13,384 bases of DNA from an uncultured Eubacterium sp. GTDB lineage: Bacteria; Bacillota_A; Clostridia; Lachnospirales; Lachnospiraceae. The DNA lies in the NCBI GenBank assembly GCA_948560485.1, contig CAOXUF010000032.1:1-13384 (forward strand). The letters are read 5' to 3'. The stretch's first letter is position 1. Each line of letters opens with the position of its first letter. The notes beneath the pieces were generated by a model. It saw only the letters and a list, made by a program, of their open reading frames with translations. It did not search any database and was not told the DNA's origin. Made by a program: the position numbers and the translations under genes. Positions 650-13,384 of the stretch are shown here, in pieces.

Positions 650-822
650 CAACCTTTCAGTGCAGTTTGCCCTTGTTCTCGTACAAGGAAGGATCTGCAC
701 TACCGCCTGTCGTAAACGCCATTCCTACCGTTTGAAGTGTGTCGTTAGAATTGGTAAGGCAACTATCTCACGAATGGAAATCACCAGTTATGAGCCGATG
801 ACTTTCCTTTGAAACCGATGAT
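650..822 (-). ncRNA. Structured intergenic RNA or 5' leader (two strong hairpins)
   Basis: There is no convincing gene between the helicase stop and the next gene. The sequence is richer in G+C than its surroundings and folds well. One hairpin pairs 659-665 with 695-701 (AGTGCAG/CTGCACT) and encloses a second stem, CCTTGT/ACAAGG at 671-676 and 683-688, with a 6-nt loop. The other pairs 776-787 with 795-807: on the minus strand GGAAA-(bulged G)-TCATCGG pairs with CTGGTGATTTCC around a 7-nt loop. A third, weaker helix is possible between 724-729 and 753-759. Neither hairpin is followed by a T-run on the minus strand, so these are not ordinary intrinsic terminators. The proximal hairpin ends about 10 nt before the GTG at 649, which suggests a leader acting on the downstream gene. 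I match it to no known RNA family. Confidence 0.45.
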
Positions 823-2310
823 TCAAGTCTTATTTTTCAATCCTATTTCAAGATATAATTCATCAACCGCATTACCCTTTCGCTTTAAACAGTTATAAAT
901 CTTTTCATCAATGGTGTTTTTGCCTTGTAAAATAATATAAGTACATTTATTATCCTGACCTATTCTATGTATTCTATCTTGACTCTGGCGGTATTCCTCA
1001 TAACTAAAACTCAAAGAATAATAAATGTTATAGGTACAATTTACAAATGTTAAACCTTTTCCAAGCAACTTAGGGTGTGTAAATAACAATTTAATCTCAT
1101 TATTTTTAAACTGACGAATTATCGAATCTCTATCTTTCGTCTGTGATGTAAGTGCTACACCATTATATTTCTCTGCAAGTCTATTGATTTCATGCTGAAA
1201 CTGACACCATATTATTATAGGTTTATCTCCTATTTCTTCAAATGCAGCATCTAATAGTTTATCTTTATTTGTATCAAAATCTATAATAGAACCATCTTTA
1301 TTGATAACAAATCCACTTACTATTTCCCTTAATTTCATCAGCTTTGCAGTAAATTCAAACTTAGACCACTCATTTATGTTGTCCTGTATATCACGAATCA
1401 TATCGTCATAATATTTCTTCTGTTCTTTACCTAGTTCAAATCGCTTTACTTCAAATACTTTTGGAGGAAGGTTAACACAATCCTCTTTCTTTAAAAACAC
1501 AGATTTTTCTCTAAGTCTGTTAAAATATGCTTCTTTATCTTCTTCTGTTTGATACCATCTATGGGGATTTGCCATATCTTGATGAAAATATCTCGCCTGA
1601 AAACCGTAAAAATTGTTACCAAATACTTCCGGATCAACAAATTTCATCTGAGGGAAGATTTCAGAATTATGATTGGGTGTTGGTGTTCCTGACAATACAA
1701 ATCTATGAGAAATGATATCTATCATTTGTAGTAATTCATTTGTAATTTGACTTGTCATGTTCTTCATCACTTGACTTTCGTCAATTATCATACAATCAAA
1801 ATTCATTTTCAAAATATCATTTTTGAGAATCTTAAAGCTCTCATAATTCATAACATATATATCAGTTTTATCATTCAAAAATGATATTCGTTCTCTTCTA
1901 CTATTTCCCCAACAATTTATAATACTTAATTCAGGATAAAATTCATTACAATCGTCAATCCATGCTGTTTCGATTACAGATAAAGGACACAAAATTAAAG
2001 TCTTTTCATAATGCTTTGCAAGTTCCAAACCCATAATTGTCTTTCCTGTGCCTGTATCGGCAAAAATGCCATAACAGCCTTCATTTAAAGCAATGTTTAC
2101 GATTTTCTTTTGATATTCTCTAAGATGAGGAGAAAGTTCAAATTGAACAATCTCCTTTTCTTTTACTTCAATTTCTAAATCTATAAGACCATACTCTTGT
2201 AACTTCTTAACTGCTGAATCTGGAAATTCCCATTTACCATTTTTAAACTTTCTTCCCTCAATGGTTCTTATGTATGGTATCTTCTCTACCGGAATCTCTA
2301 AAGACACCAT
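823..2310 (-). CDS. SNF2-family DEAD/DEAH-box helicase/ATPase
   Basis: The 495-aa protein carries the full superfamily 2 set. LREYQ (63-67) is the Q-like element, ADTGTGKT (84-91) is Walker A with K90, DESQ (177-180) is motif II in place of DEAH, SGTPTPN (207-213) is motif III, and QSQDRIHRIGQ (442-452) is motif VI. The DRxHRIGQ signature is typical of SNF2/SWI2 proteins, which translocate on double-stranded DNA. The N-terminal 50 residues (IPYIRTIEGRKFKNGKW) loosely recall the HARP-type domain of SMARCAL1-like enzymes; this is tentative. ATG at 2310 overlaps the end of the upstream methyltransferase by 13 nt, and its ribosome site AGGAGGAG lies inside that gene, so the two are probably translationally coupled. 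It may remodel DNA in replication or modification. Family assignment is firm; the biological role is not. Confidence 0.93.
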   Translation of the reverse strand: MVSLEIPVEKIPYIRTIEGRKFKNGKWEFPDSAVKKLQEYGLIDLEIEVKEKEIVQFELSPHLREYQKKIVNIALNEGCYGIFADTGTGKTIMGLELAKHYEKTLILCPLSVIETAWIDDCNEFYPELSIINCWGNSRRERISFLNDKTDIYVMNYESFKILKNDILKMNFDCMIIDESQVMKNMTSQITNELLQMIDIISHRFVLSGTPTPNHNSEIFPQMKFVDPEVFGNNFYGFQARYFHQDMANPHRWYQTEEDKEAYFNRLREKSVFLKKEDCVNLPPKVFEVKRFELGKEQKKYYDDMIRDIQDNINEWSKFEFTAKLMKLREIVSGFVINKDGSIIDFDTNKDKLLDAAFEEIGDKPIIIWCQFQHEINRLAEKYNGVALTSQTKDRDSIIRQFKNNEIKLLFTHPKLLGKGLTFVNCTYNIYYSLSFSYEEYRQSQDRIHRIGQDNKCTYIILQGKNTIDEKIYNCLKRKGNAVDELYLEIGLKNKT

Positions 2311-3332
2311 TTATTATTTTCTCCTCCTGTAGACTTTTCTTTAATTTCCTTAATTTCTTTTACTTTTAATCCCAATGCTTTAAGTTGATTTTCCAATTCT
2401 TTAATCTCGGCACGAATATCCTTTTTCTTTTGAGCCAATTCTTTCTGTTCTGCCTTTTCTGCTTTAGCATTAGCACTCTGCTCTTTACCAGCAAGCAATT
2501 CTGCTTCAAATCGTTCCTTCATTTTCTCTACAGAATCATCAGATTCAAATATGGAATTATCCCAGAGGTTAAATCTCTTTTCATTCCCTAAATCATAAAA
2601 CTCTTTATTGAGTTCAATTCCTACTGCATTTCTACCACATTCAATAGCAACTTTATTAACTGTTCCAGCTCCAGCAAACGGATCACACACTGTATCACCA
2701 GGACAAGACCATAATTTTACACACCGTTTCACCAATTCTTCAGCAAATGGAGTAGTATGTCCTATACCAGAATTACTAATATTCCATACACCATCTGCCC
2801 AATCAGCCCACTCTTCCAATGTAATATCTGATGCTTTAATTAATTCACAATCGCCAAACTTCTTATATACATATACAAATCCTACATTGGCAGCTAAAAT
2901 CGTGTCTCTTGCCTTCATATTACGATAATATAAATTACCCTGCGCAAGCATGGCTCTCTGTGCTGAATACTTACGCCAAAATGCTTTTGTCCAAAGAGAA
3001 AAATTATTATCAAGGAAAATCTTATTAATATCTCCTGTTAAACTTTCCTGTCCCATTTTGTTATCTCTACCAACAGTGTAATTGTAATCTTCAAACTGCA
3101 TAACAAACTTTCCACCTGGCTTCAGAACCCGCTCACATTCTGTGATTACAAGTCCCAACAAATAATAGTATTCTTCATAACTTTCACAGTTGGATAGATC
3201 AGACGGGTCATTGCTATAAACCCTAAGATTGTGATATGGGGGTGAGGTTATAATAAGATCAATACTTTCTGTATCCATTTTCTTTAGTTCTTTAAGGCAG
3301 TCTCCATTAATCCATTCATTTTTTAATCTCAA
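2298..3332 (-). CDS. DNA methyltransferase, beta-class motif order (TSPPY)
   Basis: The 344-aa protein has catalytic motif IV, TSPPY, near residue 30 and the AdoMet-binding motif I, DPFAGAGT, near residue 218, followed by GIELNKEFY. The order IV then I is that of beta-class amino-methyltransferases, which make N6-methyladenine or N4-methylcytosine; the SPPY form is compatible with either. The last 80 residues are charged and heptad-like (KDIRAEIKELENQLKAL), predicting a coiled coil for dimerisation or partner binding. Translation starts with TTG at 3332 after a good AAGGAGA site; no in-frame ATG is nearby. It ends in TAG, overlapping the helicase by 13 nt. No restriction endonuclease is adjacent, so it is probably an orphan phage methyltransferase that protects or marks phage DNA. 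The upstream region carries an unusual antisense-RNA-like element. Confidence 0.93.
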   Translation of the reverse strand: MRLKNEWINGDCLKELKKMDTESIDLIITSPPYHNLRVYSNDPSDLSNCESYEEYYYLLGLVITECERVLKPGGKFVMQFEDYNYTVGRDNKMGQESLTGDINKIFLDNNFSLWTKAFWRKYSAQRAMLAQGNLYYRNMKARDTILAANVGFVYVYKKFGDCELIKASDITLEEWADWADGVWNISNSGIGHTTPFAEELVKRCVKLWSCPGDTVCDPFAGAGTVNKVAIECGRNAVGIELNKEFYDLGNEKRFNLWDNSIFESDDSVEKMKERFEAELLAGKEQSANAKAEKAEQKELAQKKKDIRAEIKELENQLKALGLKVKEIKEIKEKSTGGENNKWCL

Positions 3333-3356
3333 TATGTATATCTCCTTTACTTTTTA

Positions 3357-3385
3357 TTGAGATCAACTTCGACTTGTGATATAAT
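3357..3385 (+). promoter_or_regulatory. Strong sigma-A-type promoter on plus strand with extended -10
   Basis: TTGAGA at 3357-3362 matches the -35 consensus at five of six positions. The spacer is exactly 17 bp, and TATAAT at 3380-3385 is a perfect -10 preceded by the extended TG (3377-3378). It is the best promoter match I found in the window, and it points away from all annotated protein genes. Predicted transcription starts near 3391-3393. No plus-strand protein gene follows, so it should drive a short non-coding RNA. Confidence 0.65.
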
Positions 3386-3404
3386 CAGATAGTCAAAGTT
3401 AATC
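3361..3404. promoter_or_regulatory. 13-bp dyad centred on the -10 box (operator candidate or leader hairpin)
   Basis: GATCAACTTCGAC (3361-3373) and GTCAAAGTTAATC (3392-3404) are inverted repeats with two mismatches, separated by 18 bp. The centre, 3382.5, is exactly the middle of the TATAAT box, as expected for a repressor operator. On minus-strand RNA both mismatches become G-U pairs, so the same sequence could instead form a 13-bp hairpin in the methyltransferase leader. The left arm contains a GATC that overlaps the -35 box. Confidence 0.5.
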
Positions 3405-3467
3405 ATTTGACGTTTTTTAATCTCATGCTACTGGTTGTCTCGCCAAAGTCAGACCAGTAGCATTTTA
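3392..3467 (+). ncRNA. Putative small antisense RNA directed at the methyltransferase mRNA
   Basis: Predicted start and end come from the promoter at 3357-3385 and the terminator-like hairpin at 3425-3463. The RNA would have a 5' hairpin (GTCAAA 3392-3397 with TTTGAC 3406-3411), an unpaired linker GTTTTTTAATCTC (3412-3424), and a 3' hairpin with an 11-bp stem. The linker plus the first base of the stem is perfectly complementary over 13 nt to TGAGATTAAAAAA at the methyltransferase start codon, so pairing could block its initiation. The hairpin-linker-terminator design is typical of bacterial small RNAs. The RNA is also antisense to the methyltransferase leader in cis. Expression is not shown by sequence. 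Confidence 0.45.
3425..3463 (+). terminator. Perfect 11-bp hairpin, probable terminator of the plus-strand RNA
   Basis: ATGCTACTGGT (3425-3435) and ACCAGTAGCAT (3453-3463) pair perfectly around a 17-nt loop. On the plus strand the stem runs into TTTT (3463-3466), a short T-tract giving modest terminator quality. On the minus strand it is followed by GAGATTAAAAAA, which would not terminate, so plus-strand function is favoured. Confidence 0.5.
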
Positions 3468-3512
3468 TGTAATCATCTTTCGATGTTACTAAACTATTAT
3501 TTCTACTTTTTA

Positions 3513-4103
3513 CTATTTTAATTTTCTTTCATATTCATGTAATTCTTCTATAATCAAATCTTTTGGCAACAAATCTCTACAAAAATAAGCTGTTGCAAAA
3601 GGACTTCCTTTTACTACATTCTCCATATGTTTTTTGTCATGATAAGAAACTCTCGCATCGAAACTCAATAACTGAATGCCTTGCTTGAAATATTTATATC
3701 TTGTTTTTCCTTGCAAGGAATTCAGTAGTAACAAAATCGCAAATGGTTTATTAAATAAATACAATCGCTCCAACGCTTTATCCTTCAATGAGAATGGAGG
3801 ATTGCTTACAATAATATCCCATGTATCAGGTTCATACTCGAAAAAGTCTTGTCCTTCTTGTAAAGAACTTCTTGCTACTTTATATCCTAATTATTTTAAT
3901 CTCTGATAAAATGCTGACCATTCACAATCAAACGGACACCAAATAATCTTGTCTTTTGACAAATACTTAATAATATGATCCGTTATGTAGTAAGGCGAAT
4001 AAAGTTCATTGTCTTCTTTATCAGATGTTAAATATCCTACGTTTAATCCCAATTGTTCACCATATTACTTAGTAGCTGCGCAGCTTTCTTCACCAGTGAA
4101 CAT
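3513..4103 (-). pseudogene. Phage-type adenine DNA methyltransferase interrupted by two TAA codons
   Basis: One continuous 197-codon frame starts at ATG 4103, five bases after AAGAAGGA, and ends with TAG at 3513. It is broken only by TAA at codon 13 (4065-4067) and codon 71 (3891-3893). The readable protein contains IIWCPFDCEWSAFY, then GQDFFEYEPDTWDIIVSNPPF with catalytic motif NPPF at codons 101-104, then KPFAILLLLNSLQGKTRYKY. This is the pattern of small phage N6-adenine methyltransferases, including the aromatic catalytic motif. Coding similarity is preserved on both sides of each stop (RLK-stop-LGYKV; ATK-stop-YGEQLG), so each is probably a single substitution, for example from GAA or AAA. 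TAA ends several other genes here, so reassignment is unlikely. A 91-codon C-terminal piece starting at TTG 3788 would lack most of NPPF's context. Alternatives are sequencing error or readthrough. Confidence 0.8.
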
Positions 4104-4161
4104 TCGTATCCTTCTTTAATTTCTAAACATAATTGTTACTTTACGTGTTACAAAACATTTA

Positions 4162-4893
4162 TCAACTTGTAAAATAATTCTTGTCATTTTCTATTAGGAC
4201 TTTATAATTCATAAGAATTTCATATATATTATCAGGAATTATCCCCTTATATTCATTTGTTACTTTTTGAATTGCAGCTTCTTTTGTTTTTGCGTACATT
4301 TTATAAGCATCCTCCAATTTTGAATATGTACCTAAATATTTACCATTATATGAAGCAATATATTTACTTGATTGACTCATGGTTATTCCAACTGGCAGAC
4401 CATTTTCTTTTGGCTTACATGTAAATAATTCATTTATTCTTTGTGGAACTAACATACATGAATATGGTGAATATATTTTATTTTTTGGATATTTTATATC
4501 TTTATCTATGTGAAGTTTTTCATTGCCTACATCATATTTATTTTTTTCATACCAATCAGCAAAATTTTGAAAACTGTGCCAAATTTTAGAAACTGTACAT
4601 AGGTTATAATAAGCAGGGTATTTATTCTTTTGCTCTGGATCATAACACCTCTCTAACATGTGCATCCAACTCAAATAAACATCAGAAATCTTTTTACCAT
4701 ATCTGCTTTTCCATTTACCTACATCAATATACCCAACACCATACAATATTTTGTCATACGGATTCTTTACTTCACCTCGTTTGAAATTCGTATAAGTAAT
4801 ATGTTCTTTGATAAAATGAAAATCATCTAAAAATTCTATATCCATATCATCCCATCGTCTGTAACGAACGATCTTCATTTTTGTTCTGATCAT
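4162..4893 (-). CDS. HNH-type endonuclease with C-terminal AP2-like DNA-binding domain
   Basis: The 243-aa protein matches the free-standing phage HNH/AP2 endonucleases. Family landmarks are NPYDKILYGVGYIDVGKW (44-61), WMHMLERCYDPEQKNKYPAY (76-95), then WHSFQNFADWYE (105-116), LHIDKDI (127-133) and YSPYSCMLVPQRIN (141-154). A C-terminal AP2-like module has LPVGI, KYIASYNGKYLGTY and EDAYKMYAKTKEA (about 166-207). Such proteins usually act as homing-like nicking or cleaving enzymes that move by gene conversion; the AP2 fold supplies DNA recognition. The classical HNH triad is degenerate, as is usual in this subgroup. The ATG at 4893 has only a distant AAAGGTG, so the start is uncertain; M6 is an alternative. 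It lies 58 bp upstream of the broken methyltransferase and may have arrived as a mobile gene. Confidence 0.8.
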   Translation of the reverse strand: MIRTKMKIVRYRRWDDMDIEFLDDFHFIKEHITYTNFKRGEVKNPYDKILYGVGYIDVGKWKSRYGKKISDVYLSWMHMLERCYDPEQKNKYPAYYNLCTVSKIWHSFQNFADWYEKNKYDVGNEKLHIDKDIKYPKNKIYSPYSCMLVPQRINELFTCKPKENGLPVGITMSQSSKYIASYNGKYLGTYSKLEDAYKMYAKTKEAAIQKVTNEYKGIIPDNIYEILMNYKVLIENDKNYFTS

Positions 4894-4934
4894 CTCACGG
4901 CTGCAGCACCTTTATCCTTTCTGCATTATTTCTC

Positions 4935-6545: not shown

Positions 6546-6570
6546 TGTTTCTCCCTTCTGTAATATATGT

Positions 6571-6600
6571 TTTAGAATATCTATAACAATAAAGTGTCAA
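6571..6600 (-). promoter_or_regulatory. Candidate promoter for the membrane-protein/lipoprotein pair
   Basis: On the minus strand TTGACA (complement of 6595-6600) is a perfect -35, followed after 18 bp by TCTAAA (complement of 6571-6576), a four-of-six -10. Transcription would begin around 6564, just before the ribosome site of the gene starting at 6545. The -10 is weak, so it may need an activator. Confidence 0.4.
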
Positions 6601-6619
6601 ATTTAATAAGGTCTGACAC
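6594..6619. promoter_or_regulatory. Dyad GTGTCA-N14-TGACAC overlapping the -35 box
   Basis: GTGTCA (6594-6599) and TGACAC (6614-6619) are perfect 6-bp inverted repeats separated by 14 bp. One arm overlaps the TTGACA -35 of the candidate promoter. The geometry suits a dimeric repressor or activator site. With six bases per arm, chance is a real alternative. Confidence 0.35.
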
Positions 6620-6651
6620 ATTGACCTCAAAAAGCAGTTGAAATCTCGAAT

Positions 6652-6770
6652 TTATTGCCTTACCTCAATTAGCACTTCTCCATCTTCACCAATTAGTTTC
6701 TCACCACTTTCAAGGTATATAATCCTGTTTTGTCATTGATTCTGAAAAACTCATTGCTTGTAAAAATTAT
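6652..6770 (-). pseudogene. Frameshifted small gene with apparent loss of ATG start
   Basis: Two overlapping minus-strand frames join into one sensible 39-aa protein if one base is restored. Frame one reads IFTSNEFFRINDK; frame two reads NRIIYLESGEKLIGEDGEVL then IEVRQ and stops at 6652. The break falls in GACAAAACAGG, where AAAA for AAAAA would explain the shift. No ATG, GTG or TTG precedes it in frame; ATA at 6770 stands where an ATG would overlap the upstream stop as ATGA. A single G-to-A change would turn AAATGA into the observed AAATAA. The restored length, 120 nt, is an exact codon multiple. No family recognised. It looks decayed, unless ATA initiation and frameshifting are used. Confidence 0.5.
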
Positions 6771-7418: not shown

Positions 7419-8339
7419 CTACCTCATTTTGTCGCACTTATTAAAATCTAAAAGTAACTTATACTTATATTCTCCAAATCTTCTCTTCCATTTTTGCTTT
7501 GCTTTTTCACTATCCCAAGACATAGGCATCATGTGATAATTTACCAAAAACAATATATTTAATAATTCTTCATCTGAATAATCTCTATATTGTTTAATAT
7601 TTTCTAAGTTACTCAACAGATAATAACACCCTACATTTTCATGCTGATAATAATGTGCAATTCCGTCATTATCAAATTTTTGTGTAAATACTTTACCGAT
7701 GTCATGTAATCTTGCAGCAAATAGATATTCAGTATTTACATATTCGCCAATCTTCTTGAAAATATTATATGTAAATTCACAATGTTCATATAAATCCATA
7801 GTGTGATATGGGTTCATCTGGTTGAAACCTTCCATCTCCTCATAGCAATCAGTAACAAATACATCGTTTATATACTTGTCTTCAAATTTATGTATAATAA
7901 TTTCATCAAATCCTTCTTCTATAAATGGTATCTGAAAATTCATCATTTGCTTCTGAATTACATGGTGTGGAACGGGATATTCTTTATAAATATTGTCTTC
8001 AATACACTGTTCAACTGGTTTAGGAATTATGTATGCAATTTTATAACAAGGAATCTTTCTAACATTCTCAAGTAAACTTCGTCTTGCTTTCATATTAATA
8101 TTTGTTGCATCTGCAATTACATTAATACCGTTTTTCAGATTATCCTTTATTCTACGATGAAAAATCTTAAATACTTCATCATTTTTAGACTGATCAATAA
8201 CACCGCCTTCACAAATTTCACCACGAATATCATCTGATGAAACAATCACACAATTATTTTCATTTGCAATATCTCTACCAATAGTTGACTTTCCACTAGC
8301 AGATAAACCAACCATAATATAAAATTTGGGTTTACTCAT
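7419..8339 (-). CDS. Polynucleotide kinase fused to HD-domain phosphohydrolase
   Basis: The 306-aa protein has two domains. Residues 1-150 are a P-loop kinase of the T4 polynucleotide kinase type: Walker A GLSASGKST (11-19), SSDDIRG (34-40) matching the S-x-D-x-R substrate element, and VIADATNIN (74-82). Residues 175-270 form an HD domain with H179, H186, HD at 212-213 (RLHDIGKV), HE at 233-234 and H269 as likely metal ligands. T4 Pnkp carries a HAD 3'-phosphatase in the second position; here an HD domain replaces it and may remove 2',3'-cyclic or 3'-phosphates. The 5'-kinase would phosphorylate the other end for the ligase. ATG 8339 overlaps the previous gene by 8 nt. Domain calls are firm; the 3'-end activity is inference. 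Confidence 0.9.
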   Translation of the reverse strand: MSKPKFYIMVGLSASGKSTIGRDIANENNCVIVSSDDIRGEICEGGVIDQSKNDEVFKIFHRRIKDNLKNGINVIADATNINMKARRSLLENVRKIPCYKIAYIIPKPVEQCIEDNIYKEYPVPHHVIQKQMMNFQIPFIEEGFDEIIIHKFEDKYINDVFVTDCYEEMEGFNQMNPYHTMDLYEHCEFTYNIFKKIGEYVNTEYLFAARLHDIGKVFTQKFDNDGIAHYYQHENVGCYYLLSNLENIKQYRDYSDEELLNILFLVNYHMMPMSWDSEKAKQKWKRRFGEYKYKLLLDFNKCDKMR

Positions 8340-9135
8340 TATTATTTACCTCACGCCTGATACTGAAAGTAATCAGATCAGTCATAACTTTTATCATCAA
8401 ATTATCTGCTTCTTTGTTAATAACAACTGGATTATTTACCATATAATTATCCTTATATTCTTTAATCCAATCACAAGTATCTTTTGCAATTTTCTTTGCA
8501 TCCTCTAAGGAATATATATAATCTGATTTAACTCTAAGTAGTTCTTCTCTATTTGTTGGAATAAGAATCTGTCTATACACTTCACCATTACAATATCTTT
8601 GAACAAAATCTTTCAATCGTAAAATATGATGCAACTGTTTATTATCATAGCCATACTTATCAATCTTTTCCTTAATACTTGGATACGGATGAGTAAGTGC
8701 ATTATACTTTTCAAGAGCCATACCAGACATGCAATTCACACTTGCATAATTGTTATATCTTGCAATTTTTTCCGCATTATCCAACATAGGTCTATATAGT
8801 GATTTATATATAGGATTCAGTTTGTAATATTGTGTAAAAAGCAATTCAATAAAGTTAATATTCTGTTTCTTAAAACATTCAAACATTTTACGAATATCTT
8901 TTACATCGCATAAACAGTTATCGCCCATATCTACTGTAGTGCTTACTGGTTGCCTATTCAGTACAATATCTTCTAATGTAGGAAGAACAATTGCTTTTGT
9001 ATCAACATCTGACTTCTCATAATCTAATTCATAATTCTGTGAACCATATAAGAAAACGCCAACCACGTTGTAACCTAATTCAACTAACTTTTCATAATGT
9101 ATTTCTACTTGATTTTGAACTTCTGTTTTAAACAA
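8332..9135 (-). CDS. rlaP: RlaP-type nucleotidyltransferase of RNA repair
   Basis: The 267-aa protein has a polymerase-beta-type nucleotidyltransferase signature at its N-terminus: FLYGSQNYELDYEKSDVDTK (28-47), with G31-S32 and the metal-binding aspartates D43 and D45. The GSxNYxLDxxxSDxDTK form is that of the RNA repair pathway polymerase-beta family (RlaP, Pfam PF10127). A helical C-terminal region follows, with HHILRLKDFVQRY near 168-180. These enzymes are thought to add nucleotides to damaged RNA 3' ends, although substrates are poorly defined. It starts with TTG at 9135 after GAGGAG, four bases beyond the ligase stop, and ends overlapping the kinase. Its place between ligase and kinase supports the assignment. 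Confidence 0.88.
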   Translation of the reverse strand: MFKTEVQNQVEIHYEKLVELGYNVVGVFLYGSQNYELDYEKSDVDTKAIVLPTLEDIVLNRQPVSTTVDMGDNCLCDVKDIRKMFECFKKQNINFIELLFTQYYKLNPIYKSLYRPMLDNAEKIARYNNYASVNCMSGMALEKYNALTHPYPSIKEKIDKYGYDNKQLHHILRLKDFVQRYCNGEVYRQILIPTNREELLRVKSDYIYSLEDAKKIAKDTCDWIKEYKDNYMVNNPVVINKEADNLMIKVMTDLITFSIRREVNNNE

Positions 9136-9139
9136 TTAA

Positions 9140-10498
9140 TCACTCCTCTACAAAAATTTTTGTATAATCTTCTACTCCCATATCTTTTAATTTCTTATAA
9201 TGTGGACATTTATCATTACCATTTTTGATAACATTAATTTTGTTTCCAAAATATAATTCTCTACAATATCCTTGATATTCTTTTGGAACATTCTCAGAAA
9301 CATAAATCATGAACTCTTTCTTATTACTTTTGGGTGCTAAATAATAATATTTTTCAATGATTTTTTCAGTTTTAGCTATATATTCAACAACAACATTGGC
9401 AACCTTCTTGACTTGATCATGGTAAGCAACTGGAAGTTTTGAAAGAAGATCGTCATACTTGTTATCAGCTATACTACGGATAATCAAATTTATAGATGAG
9501 AGTTTTGATAGTGCTTTATGAATATGTACATAATCATTATATTTTAGTTTCACTTTATATCCATCAATATTAATCACAAACCCTTCAGCTTCGTCAGATG
9601 ATTTATCGTCTAATTCTTTCATTACTTGTTCAATAGTCTTATCAAATAATTTAGTTGTAGGAATATTAAACACTTTTGCAAACTCCAAAACGGTACGATA
9701 ATCATATTCTTCTCCATTATCCACTCGCCTAATTCCAATAAGATATAACCCCTCTTGTTCTTTTGTATATTTGACAACATGTGCATCCTTTAAAGATATA
9801 TACTCAAATATAAAAGTACACTCTGGATATTTTTCTAACATTTCTTTATATCCTGGCAATTCATTAATCATTCTATATCCGTCTTGCAATCTCCAAGAAT
9901 TATCTGGATTAATTGCTTGACTTCCTGCCATGATAATTCTATTGTTATACCAACGTGCAGACTGCATAGATCCGTCAAGCTTATCTGAAAACTCTATTGT
10001 TTTTGCATTGGATATTCTTTTTCTGATATTATCTAAACTCGTTTCTTCAAGTTCATTTACATTAAAGAATTTTGAAAATGGTGATAAAATAATACAGTCA
10101 TTTTCTACATCAATAACTACACTTCTACACTCTCTATAAAAACCACCATATCTATCCCATAAATCTTCACCAGATGCTTCTACTTCTCCATCATAAATAT
10201 TGCTATATCGTCCATATCTAATAAGTAACATATTTTCATGCTGATTTAATTCAAGACAGGATAACAACTCCTCATATTCCTTATATTGATTAAACGGTTC
10301 TATACCATTTAGTTCTGACACCCATCTCTCTAAACAAGTTTCTGACTCATTTGTATATCCCTCTTTGTAGTAATATGTGATATATCCCAGTCTTCTTTTA
10401 TATTCATTTTTGATCTCTATAAATTTGTTCAACACGGGATTCCAGCTCAATTTCGCACCTACTTTCTCTGATTTTTGCCAATGAAATGCAAGATTCAA
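9140..10498 (-). CDS. T4 Rnl1-like RNA ligase
   Basis: The 452-aa protein shows the nucleotidyltransferase motifs of T4 RNA ligase 1. Motif I is KLDG (173-176), with K173 as the AMP-accepting lysine; FIFEYIS (229-235) is motif III, LYLIGIRR (251-258) motif IIIa, EGFVI (305-309) motif IV and YKVKLKYNDYV (314-324) motif V. GFYRECRSVV (119-128) is the typical upstream element. It is longer than T4 Rnl1 (374 aa), mostly through extra N-terminal sequence, and has a helical C-terminal domain with DYTKIFVEE at the end. The enzyme seals 5'-phosphate to 3'-hydroxyl RNA ends, classically tRNAs cut in the anticodon loop. The TTG start at 10498 overlaps the upstream stop as TTGA and lacks a strong ribosome site, so it depends on coupling. 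Confidence 0.92.
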   Translation of the reverse strand: MNLAFHWQKSEKVGAKLSWNPVLNKFIEIKNEYKRRLGYITYYYKEGYTNESETCLERWVSELNGIEPFNQYKEYEELLSCLELNQHENMLLIRYGRYSNIYDGEVEASGEDLWDRYGGFYRECRSVVIDVENDCIILSPFSKFFNVNELEETSLDNIRKRISNAKTIEFSDKLDGSMQSARWYNNRIIMAGSQAINPDNSWRLQDGYRMINELPGYKEMLEKYPECTFIFEYISLKDAHVVKYTKEQEGLYLIGIRRVDNGEEYDYRTVLEFAKVFNIPTTKLFDKTIEQVMKELDDKSSDEAEGFVINIDGYKVKLKYNDYVHIHKALSKLSSINLIIRSIADNKYDDLLSKLPVAYHDQVKKVANVVVEYIAKTEKIIEKYYYLAPKSNKKEFMIYVSENVPKEYQGYCRELYFGNKINVIKNGNDKCPHYKKLKDMGVEDYTKIFVEE

Positions 10499-12077: not shown

Positions 12078-13325
12078 CTAATATTTCCAGTCATCTTCTC
12101 TAACCTGGTAAGCATCTCCACACTGGATAATATCATGATAGTTTTTCATTGCTATTTTCTTCGCATAATCATCAATCTCATATGCCTTATATGTAATGTT
12201 CGTGTATCCCAACTTATCCAAACAATATCTACCTGTTGCAATACCGTCATACATAGATAAAACTTCTATTGGATAATCTTTTGGAATATCAATATGTGAT
12301 AAGATATGTATGATCACTTCTGCTGTCCAGCCATTACCAATACATTTATAACGCTGTGCATTTGAAATCCCTTCTGTGTAATTATCTGGAAGAGTCTGTA
12401 ATCTTTCACATTCAATAGGAGTTAATTTACGAATAGTATAATATCCACCTGGTAGATCGATTTCATATCTTTCTTCTTTACACCATATATATCCATCCTT
12501 GATTCGATATATCAACTTCCCATCAATTTCAATGTTCCCACTTTCGTGAATAATTACATTTTCATAATCATCTAAATTGAAATCCGTCAATTCAGCAACC
12601 ATTGTTCTACGATGCTTATTTAGTGTTTGTTTTGGATTGGAACCTTTATAATAATTGGCATCTATACAATGCGCCTTATCTTTATCATCTGATCCAAATG
12701 AGAAAACAGGTGCAATATATAATCCTGTCTTACCACCTTGTCCTCCACCACCAGCATTTATTGTTACTGATTTACCAAAACTACTATAAACTCTGTGTGC
12801 TTGAGCTGTACTCCCAATATCCCCGATTCTCACAGGTTCAGCAATCATTGTATGTCTATGACGTTTTAAAGTATCTGAAATAATAGCACCTGAACATCTT
12901 GTAGTAAGGGCGTATGATTTCTCCAACCAAGTTGCTCCGCTTTCTAAAATATCAACTAGTAATATTCCTCTATCTTCAGGCTGATTCACACCAGGAATAT
13001 TATGAGCATAAAAACGCTGCCGGTTCTGTGCTGATACTAATGCTGAATTTATATATTGTAATTCTGTATTTAATTCATGACTAATCTGATCCTTAATAGG
13101 CTGTGCTGCTGATTTATTATTTTCATATAAGAAGAAATCTGGTTTGAATTTCTCTTTTGCGATTAAATAGTTTTCAAACAGTTCCCATCCTAATCCTTCT
13201 GGTTTCGTTTCTCTGTTATTCTTCTGAGCTATTGACCAGTGAGTGCAAGGCGATCCGCCGATTAGCAGTCTCAAGGGTCTACCATTAAGTTCCTCTAAAC
13301 TAAATCTTTTATTATTACTTACCAA
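12078..13325 (-). CDS. Circularly permuted C5-cytosine DNA methyltransferase
   Basis: The 415-aa protein opens with catalytic motif IV, LLIGGSPCTHWS (20-31, nucleophile C27), followed by YENN (67-70, motif VI), SAQNRQRFY (98-106, motif VIII), a variable region, RKLTPIECERLQTLPDNYT (motif IX) and CIGNGWTAEV (motif X). The AdoMet-binding motif I, LSMYDGIATG (356-365), YEID (382-385) and GDAYQV (403-408) come last. In ordinary C5 enzymes I-III precede IV, so the gene is permuted with ends between III and IV. The variable target-recognition region contains a repeated pattern, TLKRHRHTMIAE and TLNKHRRTMVAE (152-163, 234-245). Start is TTG 13325, preceded by an in-frame stop and with no clear ribosome site; it may be coupled to the upstream frame that overlaps it. 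Confidence 0.9.
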   Translation of the reverse strand: MVSNNKRFSLEELNGRPLRLLIGGSPCTHWSIAQKNNRETKPEGLGWELFENYLIAKEKFKPDFFLYENNKSAAQPIKDQISHELNTELQYINSALVSAQNRQRFYAHNIPGVNQPEDRGILLVDILESGATWLEKSYALTTRCSGAIISDTLKRHRHTMIAEPVRIGDIGSTAQAHRVYSSFGKSVTINAGGGGQGGKTGLYIAPVFSFGSDDKDKAHCIDANYYKGSNPKQTLNKHRRTMVAELTDFNLDDYENVIIHESGNIEIDGKLIYRIKDGYIWCKEERYEIDLPGGYYTIRKLTPIECERLQTLPDNYTEGISNAQRYKCIGNGWTAEVIIHILSHIDIPKDYPIEVLSMYDGIATGRYCLDKLGYTNITYKAYEIDDYAKKIAMKNYHDIIQCGDAYQVREDDWKY

Positions 13326-13375
13326 ATGTCTTTATCTACAAGGCGTTGCAACGCTAATTTATCCGGAATTACTTG
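13319..13375 (-). other. C-terminal end of an upstream frame at the window edge
   Basis: A minus-strand frame reads QVIPDKLALQRLVDKDIW and stops at TAA 13319, overlapping the methyltransferase start by 7 nt. It looks coding, but TAA stands in frame at 13376-13378, immediately before it. Possible explanations are another nonsense mutation, a start at ATT 13369, a frameshift, or chance. The window edge prevents a decision. Confidence 0.35.
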
Positions 13376-13384
13376 TTATATCCT

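Follow-up and report, generated by a model that had tools for sequence, protein, structure and literature searches.

The window, as we call the whole stretch of 13,384 nucleotides analysed here, has all of its longer reading frames on the minus strand. Opposite to them, at 3357-3467, a near-consensus promoter and two hairpins follow one another on the plus strand, just upstream of a gene for a DNA methyltransferase. What does this element encode, and by what means, if any, does it act on its neighbour? The initial annotation had answered that it specifies a small antisense RNA repressing translation of the methyltransferase, in trans through a 13-nt match between the RNA's linker and the start of the mRNA, and also in cis through the complementary leader. 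We examined this proposal by computation, from the anatomy of the RNA gene to its relatives in other phages and in plasmids.

A small RNA gene on the plus strand

The promoter described earlier was indeed present. It reads TTGAGA-N17-TATAAT (3357..3385, plus strand), with the extended element TGATATAAT at 3377-3385, and its hexamers are identical in a relative phage (L001/L024; see below). A weighted scan of the plus strand placed this site first, with a score of 13.5 as compared to 11.3 for the runner-up. Two sites in the window matched the consensus at 11 of 12 positions, namely, this one and another at 4181, and only the former has the extended TG. Since the total of promoter-like sites in the window (81) matched that of shuffled sequences (79.5), it is the quality of the 3357-3385 promoter alone that stands out.

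The predicted antisense RNA is ~75 nt long (3392..3467, plus strand), as judged from folds and model matches, with its start placed by the promoter. Folding of 3392-3475 reproduced the order of 5' hairpin, linker and terminator-like hairpin that had been claimed (-24.6 kcal/mol, z = -5.2; equal stability in 0 of 200 shuffles). The 5' hairpin (3392..3411, plus strand) has a stem of 6 bp, GUCAAA/UUUGAC, and is followed by an unpaired linker (3412..3424, plus strand). The terminator hairpin (3425..3463, plus strand) is formed by 11-bp arms at 3425-3435 and 3453-3463, an exact inverted repeat, and contains the loop core CTCGCCAAAGT (3439-3449, plus strand), with the hexaloop CGCCAA at 3441-3446. 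Behind it lies a T-rich terminator tail (3464..3473, plus strand) with five T among its first 8 nt; the tail of the close relative L023 is longer by one T. An automatic scan of the window returned no terminator, its rule admitting only loops of 3-8 nt and this loop having 17 nt. By its sequence, 3357-3467 on the plus strand looks like a complete small-RNA gene, running from an extended -10 promoter through the 5' hairpin and linker to an intrinsic terminator.

The methyltransferase gene and its leader

The neighbouring gene (2298..3332, minus strand) encodes an N6/N4 DNA methyltransferase of 344 aa (Pfam PF01555, E = 5.3e-31), with a TTG start at 3332 and the Shine-Dalgarno sequence AAAGGAG at 3342-3348. 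The matches to this protein in 17 related loci (L001-L017) all start from residue 1. Since the RNA is divergent from the methyltransferase gene and upstream of it, its antisense partner would be the leader rather than the coding start. A minus-strand scan found no convincing sense promoter directly upstream of the leader (best scores 7.8 and 7.1, ranks 26 and 51), so that read-through from upstream genes must be assumed.

Folding of the leader gave a putative target hairpin (3425..3463, minus strand; -18.8 kcal/mol, z = -4.5), the mirror image of the terminator hairpin, with a loop region, ACUUUGGCGAG, that contains UUGGCG. A second leader hairpin (3361..3404, minus strand) would join arms 3391-3404 and 3361-3374 through 14 pairs, including two G-U, around the -10 box; inverted repeats around the -10 were found at p < 0.02 in 7 of the 15 members of the group described below, including both the window and the closely related L023. 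Overlapping this second hairpin in bases is a predicted start-codon-sequestering hairpin (3323..3366, minus strand; arms 3355-3366 and 3323-3334), which holds the Shine-Dalgarno sequence in its loop and is weaker in L001. Since the leader can fold back onto its own start codon, the 13-nt target of the proposed trans pairing is not simply free. By eye, no exact second CGCCAA, as used in the pseudoknot of plasmid rep mRNAs, was seen in the minus-strand leader; CGUCAA at 3412-3407 (UGUCAA in L001) could pair with UUGGCG, with one G-U. Nor was a clear U-run, as of a sense-leader terminator, seen past the second hairpin of the members inspected by eye, save that L058 has a short one.

That the leader repeat arose from a longer duplication of the methyltransferase 5' end was considered and found not convincing: the local alignment score was 32 for the window, equalled by 126 of 10,000 shuffles, and 36 for L001, equalled by 13 of 10,000, and an unrelated site in the window also scores 36. 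Apart from these features, the minus strand has at 3347-3406 a 19-codon open frame, MINFDYLIISQVEVDLNKK, which ends just ahead of the methyltransferase Shine-Dalgarno sequence and for which no ribosome-binding site of its own was seen by eye.

Conservation among methyltransferase relatives

Methyltransferase-like loci from viral contigs (n = 22) were collected, and the upstream regions of L001-L017 were viewed; the remainder, L018-L022, were partial or were matches of 25-36% and lower. By eye, the antisense element was present in L001 and absent from the 16 others (L002-L017), whose best antisense promoters scored 5.5-9.8 vs. 13.5 for the window. The RNA model matched 1 of 17 records that encode a methyltransferase relative (counted without L015, the upstream region of which is identical to that of L008). 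The expectation that promoter and match would be kept wherever the methyltransferase is kept thus failed among the more distant relatives, and the RNA is not an obligate partner of the enzyme. Rather, it has the look of a leader module that can be exchanged.

The sole carrier was a phage of Eubacterium plexicaudatum ASF492 (L001/L023 in IMG/VR, L024 in a genome assembly), which is 97% identical to the window over bases 810-3510, a block that ends at most 3 nt from the stop codon of the upstream gene. The near-consensus extended -10 promoter is retained on the plus strand in both. Promoter plus RNA (3357-3463) differ between the two by 3 substitutions in 107 positions vs. 19 in 239 fourfold sites (p = 0.051) and, when the linker is set aside, by 1 in 94 vs. 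the same 19 in 239 (p = 0.0099). A further search gave three loci (L024-L026), two of which, L024 and L025, were aligned; the element is absent from L025. Searches of genomes of the host phylum, by pattern (398) and by model (378), and of the host family by model R1 (n = 397) found carriers of the loop in one and the same host only, an absence elsewhere that is weak evidence since at most 12 candidates were scored per genome or the exact pattern was required. Matches of R1 without the loop, i.e., G151/L044 (E = 0.0445, in 1 of the 397 genomes) and L037 (E = 0.28), were taken as chance, and the match in G332 was limited to a 24-nt piece near a Shine-Dalgarno sequence.

Two of the loci without the antisense element, L009 and L012, have near-consensus sense promoters (15.8 and 14.8) ~85 nt ahead of the methyltransferase gene; by eye, hairpins come next, close to the predicted 5' end. 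At L024:3929-4032, single A residues are missing from two A-runs at the methyltransferase start as compared to L001, giving a fused frame; these are perhaps assembly errors.

Recurrence of the element in viral genomes

A model made from the window and L023 only gave a further, weak match in that relative phage (E = 0.16 in 139,513 bases; 0.051 in a smaller search), which proved to be a second copy. This copy lies upstream of a C5 methyltransferase gene and on the opposite strand to it, with an extended -10 promoter, a 5' hairpin and an identical loop, CTCGCCAAAGT, and its 14-bp stem is wholly unlike that of the window yet paired. Viral contigs were scanned with the pattern TGATATANT-N38-68-CTCGCCAAAGT, i.e., the -10 element plus the terminator loop (CUCGCCAAAGU). 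Results showed 30 loci, in which the loop is closed by a stem of 9-15 bp (22 loci) or of 4-6 bp (eight loci, regarded as stemless: L048, L052, L065, L066, L067, L070, L072 and L073). Several of the 22 stemmed loci are near-identical, one stem being common to seven of them. With the window included, there are 14 distinct stems, and each of nine inner positions shows four or five pair types. A control scan with the loop reversed gave seven loci with stems of 2-6 bp, and a stem of at least 9 bp occurred at 299 of 20,000 random positions.

The stems covary. Twelve of the 15 members were aligned (A6); this alignment was fitted to the structure, as the stem comparison of the scan loci was not. In it, all 17 of 17 pairs vary in both partners, a result equalled by 1 of 500 shuffles. 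Of its cells, 97.9% were paired, and the covariation score was 1.056 vs. 0.234 in shuffles (0 of 500 for both measures); slid controls were 36-52% paired. Helix 1 of the alignment, the 5' hairpin, was 96.7% paired and changed on both sides in 6 of 6 pairs, and a 5' hairpin stood at the 5' end of all 16 sequences that were folded. Behind the terminator hairpin, all 23 stemmed members have T-rich tails, with T at 4-7 of 8 positions, which argues for an RNA on the plus strand. A second model found the held-out members L074 (2.9e-5), L050 (1.4e-4) and L064 (0.0031), themselves picked by the same pattern. Since the scan fixed the -10 and the loop, conservation of the loop is not measurable on its own matches; evidence from outside the scan is limited to the consensus of the Rfam family RF02589 and to two streptococcal phages with CTCGCCAAATTT, which were picked up through DNA similarity with L060 and not through the loop pattern. 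Both of these phages retain CTCGCCAAA beside an integrase gene (annotated as 'mobile element protein' in one of them). The window fits the group in its extended -10, its 5' hairpin, its long variable stem with the CUCGCCAAAGU loop, its T tail and its nearby opposite-strand start.

A possible third element of the relative phage, with one hairpin, was noted at L036:10921-10968 (plus strand), upstream of an opposite-strand gene; it comprises an extended -10, a 9-bp A/T stem around ACGCCAAT and a T-rich tail.

Genes adjoining the elements

Most members of the group are located ahead of genes on the opposite strand. A start with a Shine-Dalgarno sequence lies on that strand 0-72 nt from the -10 in 12 of the 15 members, as compared to 1 of 5 non-hairpin scan loci and 0 of 7 reversed-loop loci. 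The former control took five of the eight stemless loci, the other three resembling copies of L066 and L067. A minus-strand frame of at least 50 codons running through the promoter from a Shine-Dalgarno-backed start was found in none of the 15 members. For L057, L047 and L063, no start so backed was found within 120 nt; the methyltransferase starts of L057 (PF00145) and L063 (PF01555) are 252 and 261 nt away and lack Shine-Dalgarno support.

The adjoining genes are diverse. Methyltransferases stand beside the window element and L023 and beside L063 (PF01555 in each) and beside L057 (PF00145), and integrases beside L060 and L064. Prophage sRNA candidates reported in PMC3675131 all adjoined integrase genes and were removed from the list there. 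Rha is found beside L054 and, by sequence likeness, beside L062, while a PriCT_1 primase adjoins L049, an HTH protein L046 and a Gp111-like protein (below the Pfam cut-off) L050. L074 has a DUF3173 gene ahead of an integrase-like frame, and the gene adjoining L047 had no Pfam match. The Pfam scan covered the adjoining genes other than those of L058, L061 and L062 and the integrase-like frame of L074.

Relation to known antisense RNAs

Plasmid ColIb-P9 is one of the IncI-complex plasmids with an RNAI/Inc antisense RNA. The motif 5'-rUUGGCG-3' is named in the title of a 1998 paper by Asano and colleagues. In IncI-complex plasmids, RNAI controls rep by a kissing contact with stem-loop I (PMC10724649), and a figure legend gives the hexanucleotide TTGGCG as the contact site (PMC7646527). 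In the sequence of the IncK plasmid pCT, we found RNAI as a terminator hairpin with the loop CCCGCCAAAGTT, followed by TTTT and lying within the repA leader on the strand opposite to repA. The pCT RNAI and the window RNA are alike in their CGCCAA-loop terminator hairpin, small asymmetric bulge and T tail, and in a target loop with UUGGCG. IncI-complex RNAI also resembles the window RNA in lying on the antisense strand inside the leader of the gene controlled, provided that the window leader is transcribed. However, the target of RNAI is a replication initiator whereas that of the window RNA would be a PF01555 methyltransferase, the pCT stretch folded without the 5' hairpin that the window RNA has, and the IncI-complex rep mRNA has a second CGCCAA for an activating pseudoknot, for which the window leader offers a near-match at best. 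Family model R2 matched pCT in the right place, but the match (15.1 bits, E = 4.2) was not significant. On this comparison, the window RNA most likely works like plasmid RNAI; yet, given the lack of a replication gene, the near-match pseudoknot partner and the non-significant model match, it was not filed as a member.

One member belongs to a catalogued family. L060, which fits the pattern and directly precedes an opposite-strand integrase gene, is also a copy of RF02589 (Spy779816, a Streptococcus pyogenes sRNA), just reaching the Rfam threshold (68.2 vs. 67 bits). Like the group, RF02589 is a two-hairpin RNA with a cgCCAA loop. Among the 13 members other than the window that were scanned, L060 alone matched RF02589 at the gathering threshold and the other 12 did not; the window itself had no such Rfam match, either at the gathering threshold or, in 3300-3560, at E <= 10. 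The passages returned by our literature search described no function for RF02589.

Restraint of a DNA methyltransferase by a small antisense RNA from a reverse promoter has a precedent in EcoRI Rna0 (PMC3874152), which is 88 nt long and targets the modification gene; the window RNA would correspond to it if the proposed restraint is correct. The Rna0 promoter is inside the restriction gene and faces the methyltransferase promoter, with mutual interference, and the passages of PMC3874152 on Rna0 that were available to us mention no CGCCAA loop. P22 sar (104 nt) and pAD1 RNAII (66 nt) are further short antisense RNAs of mobile elements that block translation of their targets (PMC13397905; PMC3874152), as is proposed for the window RNA. 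P22 sar pairs with the overlapping ant mRNA (PMC13397905; PMC3874152); pAD1 RNAII uses direct repeats, which resembles the 13-nt idea, although the repeat of the window RNA is not conserved in its relative. Two other candidates were set aside: mimicry of an AbiF/type III antitoxin, the abiF motif RF03085 (PMC12373285) being absent from 3300-3560 at E <= 10, and skipping-rope RNA, which was not among the Rfam matches at E <= 10 in the same interval. Among the matches listed from the open-licence literature, none linked the UUGGCG loop with the leader of a phage gene. On this view, the window RNA would be an antisense RNA with the plasmid loop that phages direct against the leaders of methyltransferase and other genes.

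Proposed mechanism

Since the IncK RNAI shares hairpin, loop, tail and position with the window RNA, a cis-antisense kissing-loop RNA is the most likely interpretation. We hold it probable that the RNA is cis-antisense to the methyltransferase leader, that CGCCAA and UUGGCG kiss, that expression is thereby lowered, and that the module is not tied to the enzyme. With the same anatomy and position as RNAI, and with UUGGCG in the mirror hairpin, kissing followed by pairing along the leader would be the most economical mechanism. If both strands are transcribed, the terminator hairpin would expose the hexaloop CGCCAA and the mirror hairpin of the leader UUGGCG; these two loops would kiss first, and pairing would then spread along the leader, as for RNAI/Inc RNA with rep mRNA. 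In this manner, the RNA may repress the methyltransferase in cis. Binding could lower expression by refolding of the downstream leader into a form with a closed start codon, by making the antisense-leader duplex a substrate for RNase III, or by both. In other viral loci, the same module would operate with freely varying stems ahead of different genes.

The start-closing step was modelled by removing the antisense-covered part of the leader. In the window, the cost of opening the start rose from 4.2 to 6.5 kcal/mol, an effect equalled by 2 of 200 shuffled leaders. The cost also rose for 10 of 14 members, and 6 of 12 real leaders were equalled by no more than 3 of their 60 shuffled versions; L058 was absent from both of these tests, and the shuffled-leader test was done without L057 and L063, the gene starts of which are distant. 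The effect fails in the close relative L023 and in L060, where 57 of 60 shuffled leaders did at least as well. Evidence for closing of the start by leader refolding is mixed and only suggestive.

Beyond this locus, we lean somewhat towards the view that phages and other mobile elements share an exchangeable leader-antisense module with the CGCCAA loop, acquired by methyltransferases, integrases, Rha and primases for fast, stem-specific self-repression. Incompatible plasmids repress each other, and DNA methyltransferases can shield phage DNA from restriction. Were this view correct, plasmid copy control would be a single application of a device general to mobile elements, and the UUGGCG/CGCCAA device of plasmids would also set the levels of phage methyltransferases, integrases and regulators. 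The stem of each copy would confer its own immunity or incompatibility specificity, and crosstalk would be expected, with elements of equal stems repressing each other's gene. A set of RNA genes, including the catalogued streptococcal sRNA, would come under one testable rule.

Alternative explanations

The RNA could instead act in trans, with the CGCCAA loop as a common seed or protein-binding site for a host target and its position in a leader incidental. Consistent with this, elements with different stems and linkers have one loop in common (the scan having fixed the loop), self-antisense pairing by itself needs no single loop sequence, and the Rfam entry for the streptococcal copy calls it no more than an sRNA. 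However, proximity to an opposite-strand start, as found in 12 of 15 members vs. 1 of 12 controls in total, speaks against it, and plasmid RNAI retains the same loop while acting on the leader that it overlaps. We therefore regard this alternative as unlikely.

Pairing of the linker, TTTTTTAATCTCA, in trans over the methyltransferase start so as to block translation was the mechanism favoured by the initial annotation. The complementarity itself is exact, 3413-3424 plus A3425 being a direct repeat of 3319-3331. In the window, linker and start would pair at -16.9 kcal/mol, rank 1 of 22 starts, and when the RNA region was shuffled with its dinucleotides preserved, 3 of 2000 sequences had a match of at least 13 nt, a frequency to be read in light of the match having been picked after the fact. 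In the relative phage, the sole relative in which the RNA was found, a G in the target is replaced by A and the linker differs at two positions (3412 and 3413 in L023); pairing drops to -7.0 kcal/mol and the methyltransferase start to rank 88 of 166 phage starts. The window linker binds one unrelated start of that phage better (-18.2 kcal/mol) than its own target. Of four substitutions between the two phages in 3319-3463, three are in the pairing partners and one is in the promoter spacer, the rest being nearly unchanged; seen across promoter plus RNA, two of three fall in the linker. Linkers of other distinct members seem unrelated by eye. Given the loss of pairing in the relative phage, the 13-nt match was rejected as the main mechanism, and we consider trans repression through the linker highly improbable. 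What stands of the antisense proposal, by the evidence of the family, is a plus-strand RNA gene antisense to the methyltransferase leader.

That the minus-strand leader alone is functional, as a riboswitch-like or protein-bound structure with the plus-strand promoter and terminator as by-products, is scarcely credible: the minus strand does fold both hairpins well (z = -4.9), and the inverted repeat at the window -10 pairs fully (with two G-U) on that strand only, but the T-rich tails in 23 of 23 stemmed members, the retained extended -10 and the cataloguing of the streptococcal member as an sRNA in this orientation all speak for the plus strand.

Other features of the window

Several further features were noted in the window. 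Directly abutting the antisense element, 3513-4160 (minus strand) is a DNA-methyltransferase-like frame with in-frame stops and, by eye, an SNPPF motif; the relative phage has a different gene in its place. Near the right end, the leader of a C5 methyltransferase gene (13296-13384) is 97% identical to that of the relative phage, in which the second antisense element begins ~175 nt further upstream. A matching element of the window phage, if kept, would lie just past the right end of the window. The C5 methyltransferase itself (12078-13325, minus strand) has 415 aa vs. 599 aa in the relative, and by eye the two share their first residues and then diverge. Two short segments located at gene starts or slightly upstream of them, 6552-6653 and 4887-4931, share 84% and 91% identity with the relative although their flanks do not align, and leaders seem to be exchanged as modules. 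Finally, 7419-10498 (minus strand) encodes a T4-type RNA ligase beside an AAA_33/HD protein and another protein, and looks like a phage RNA-repair cassette.
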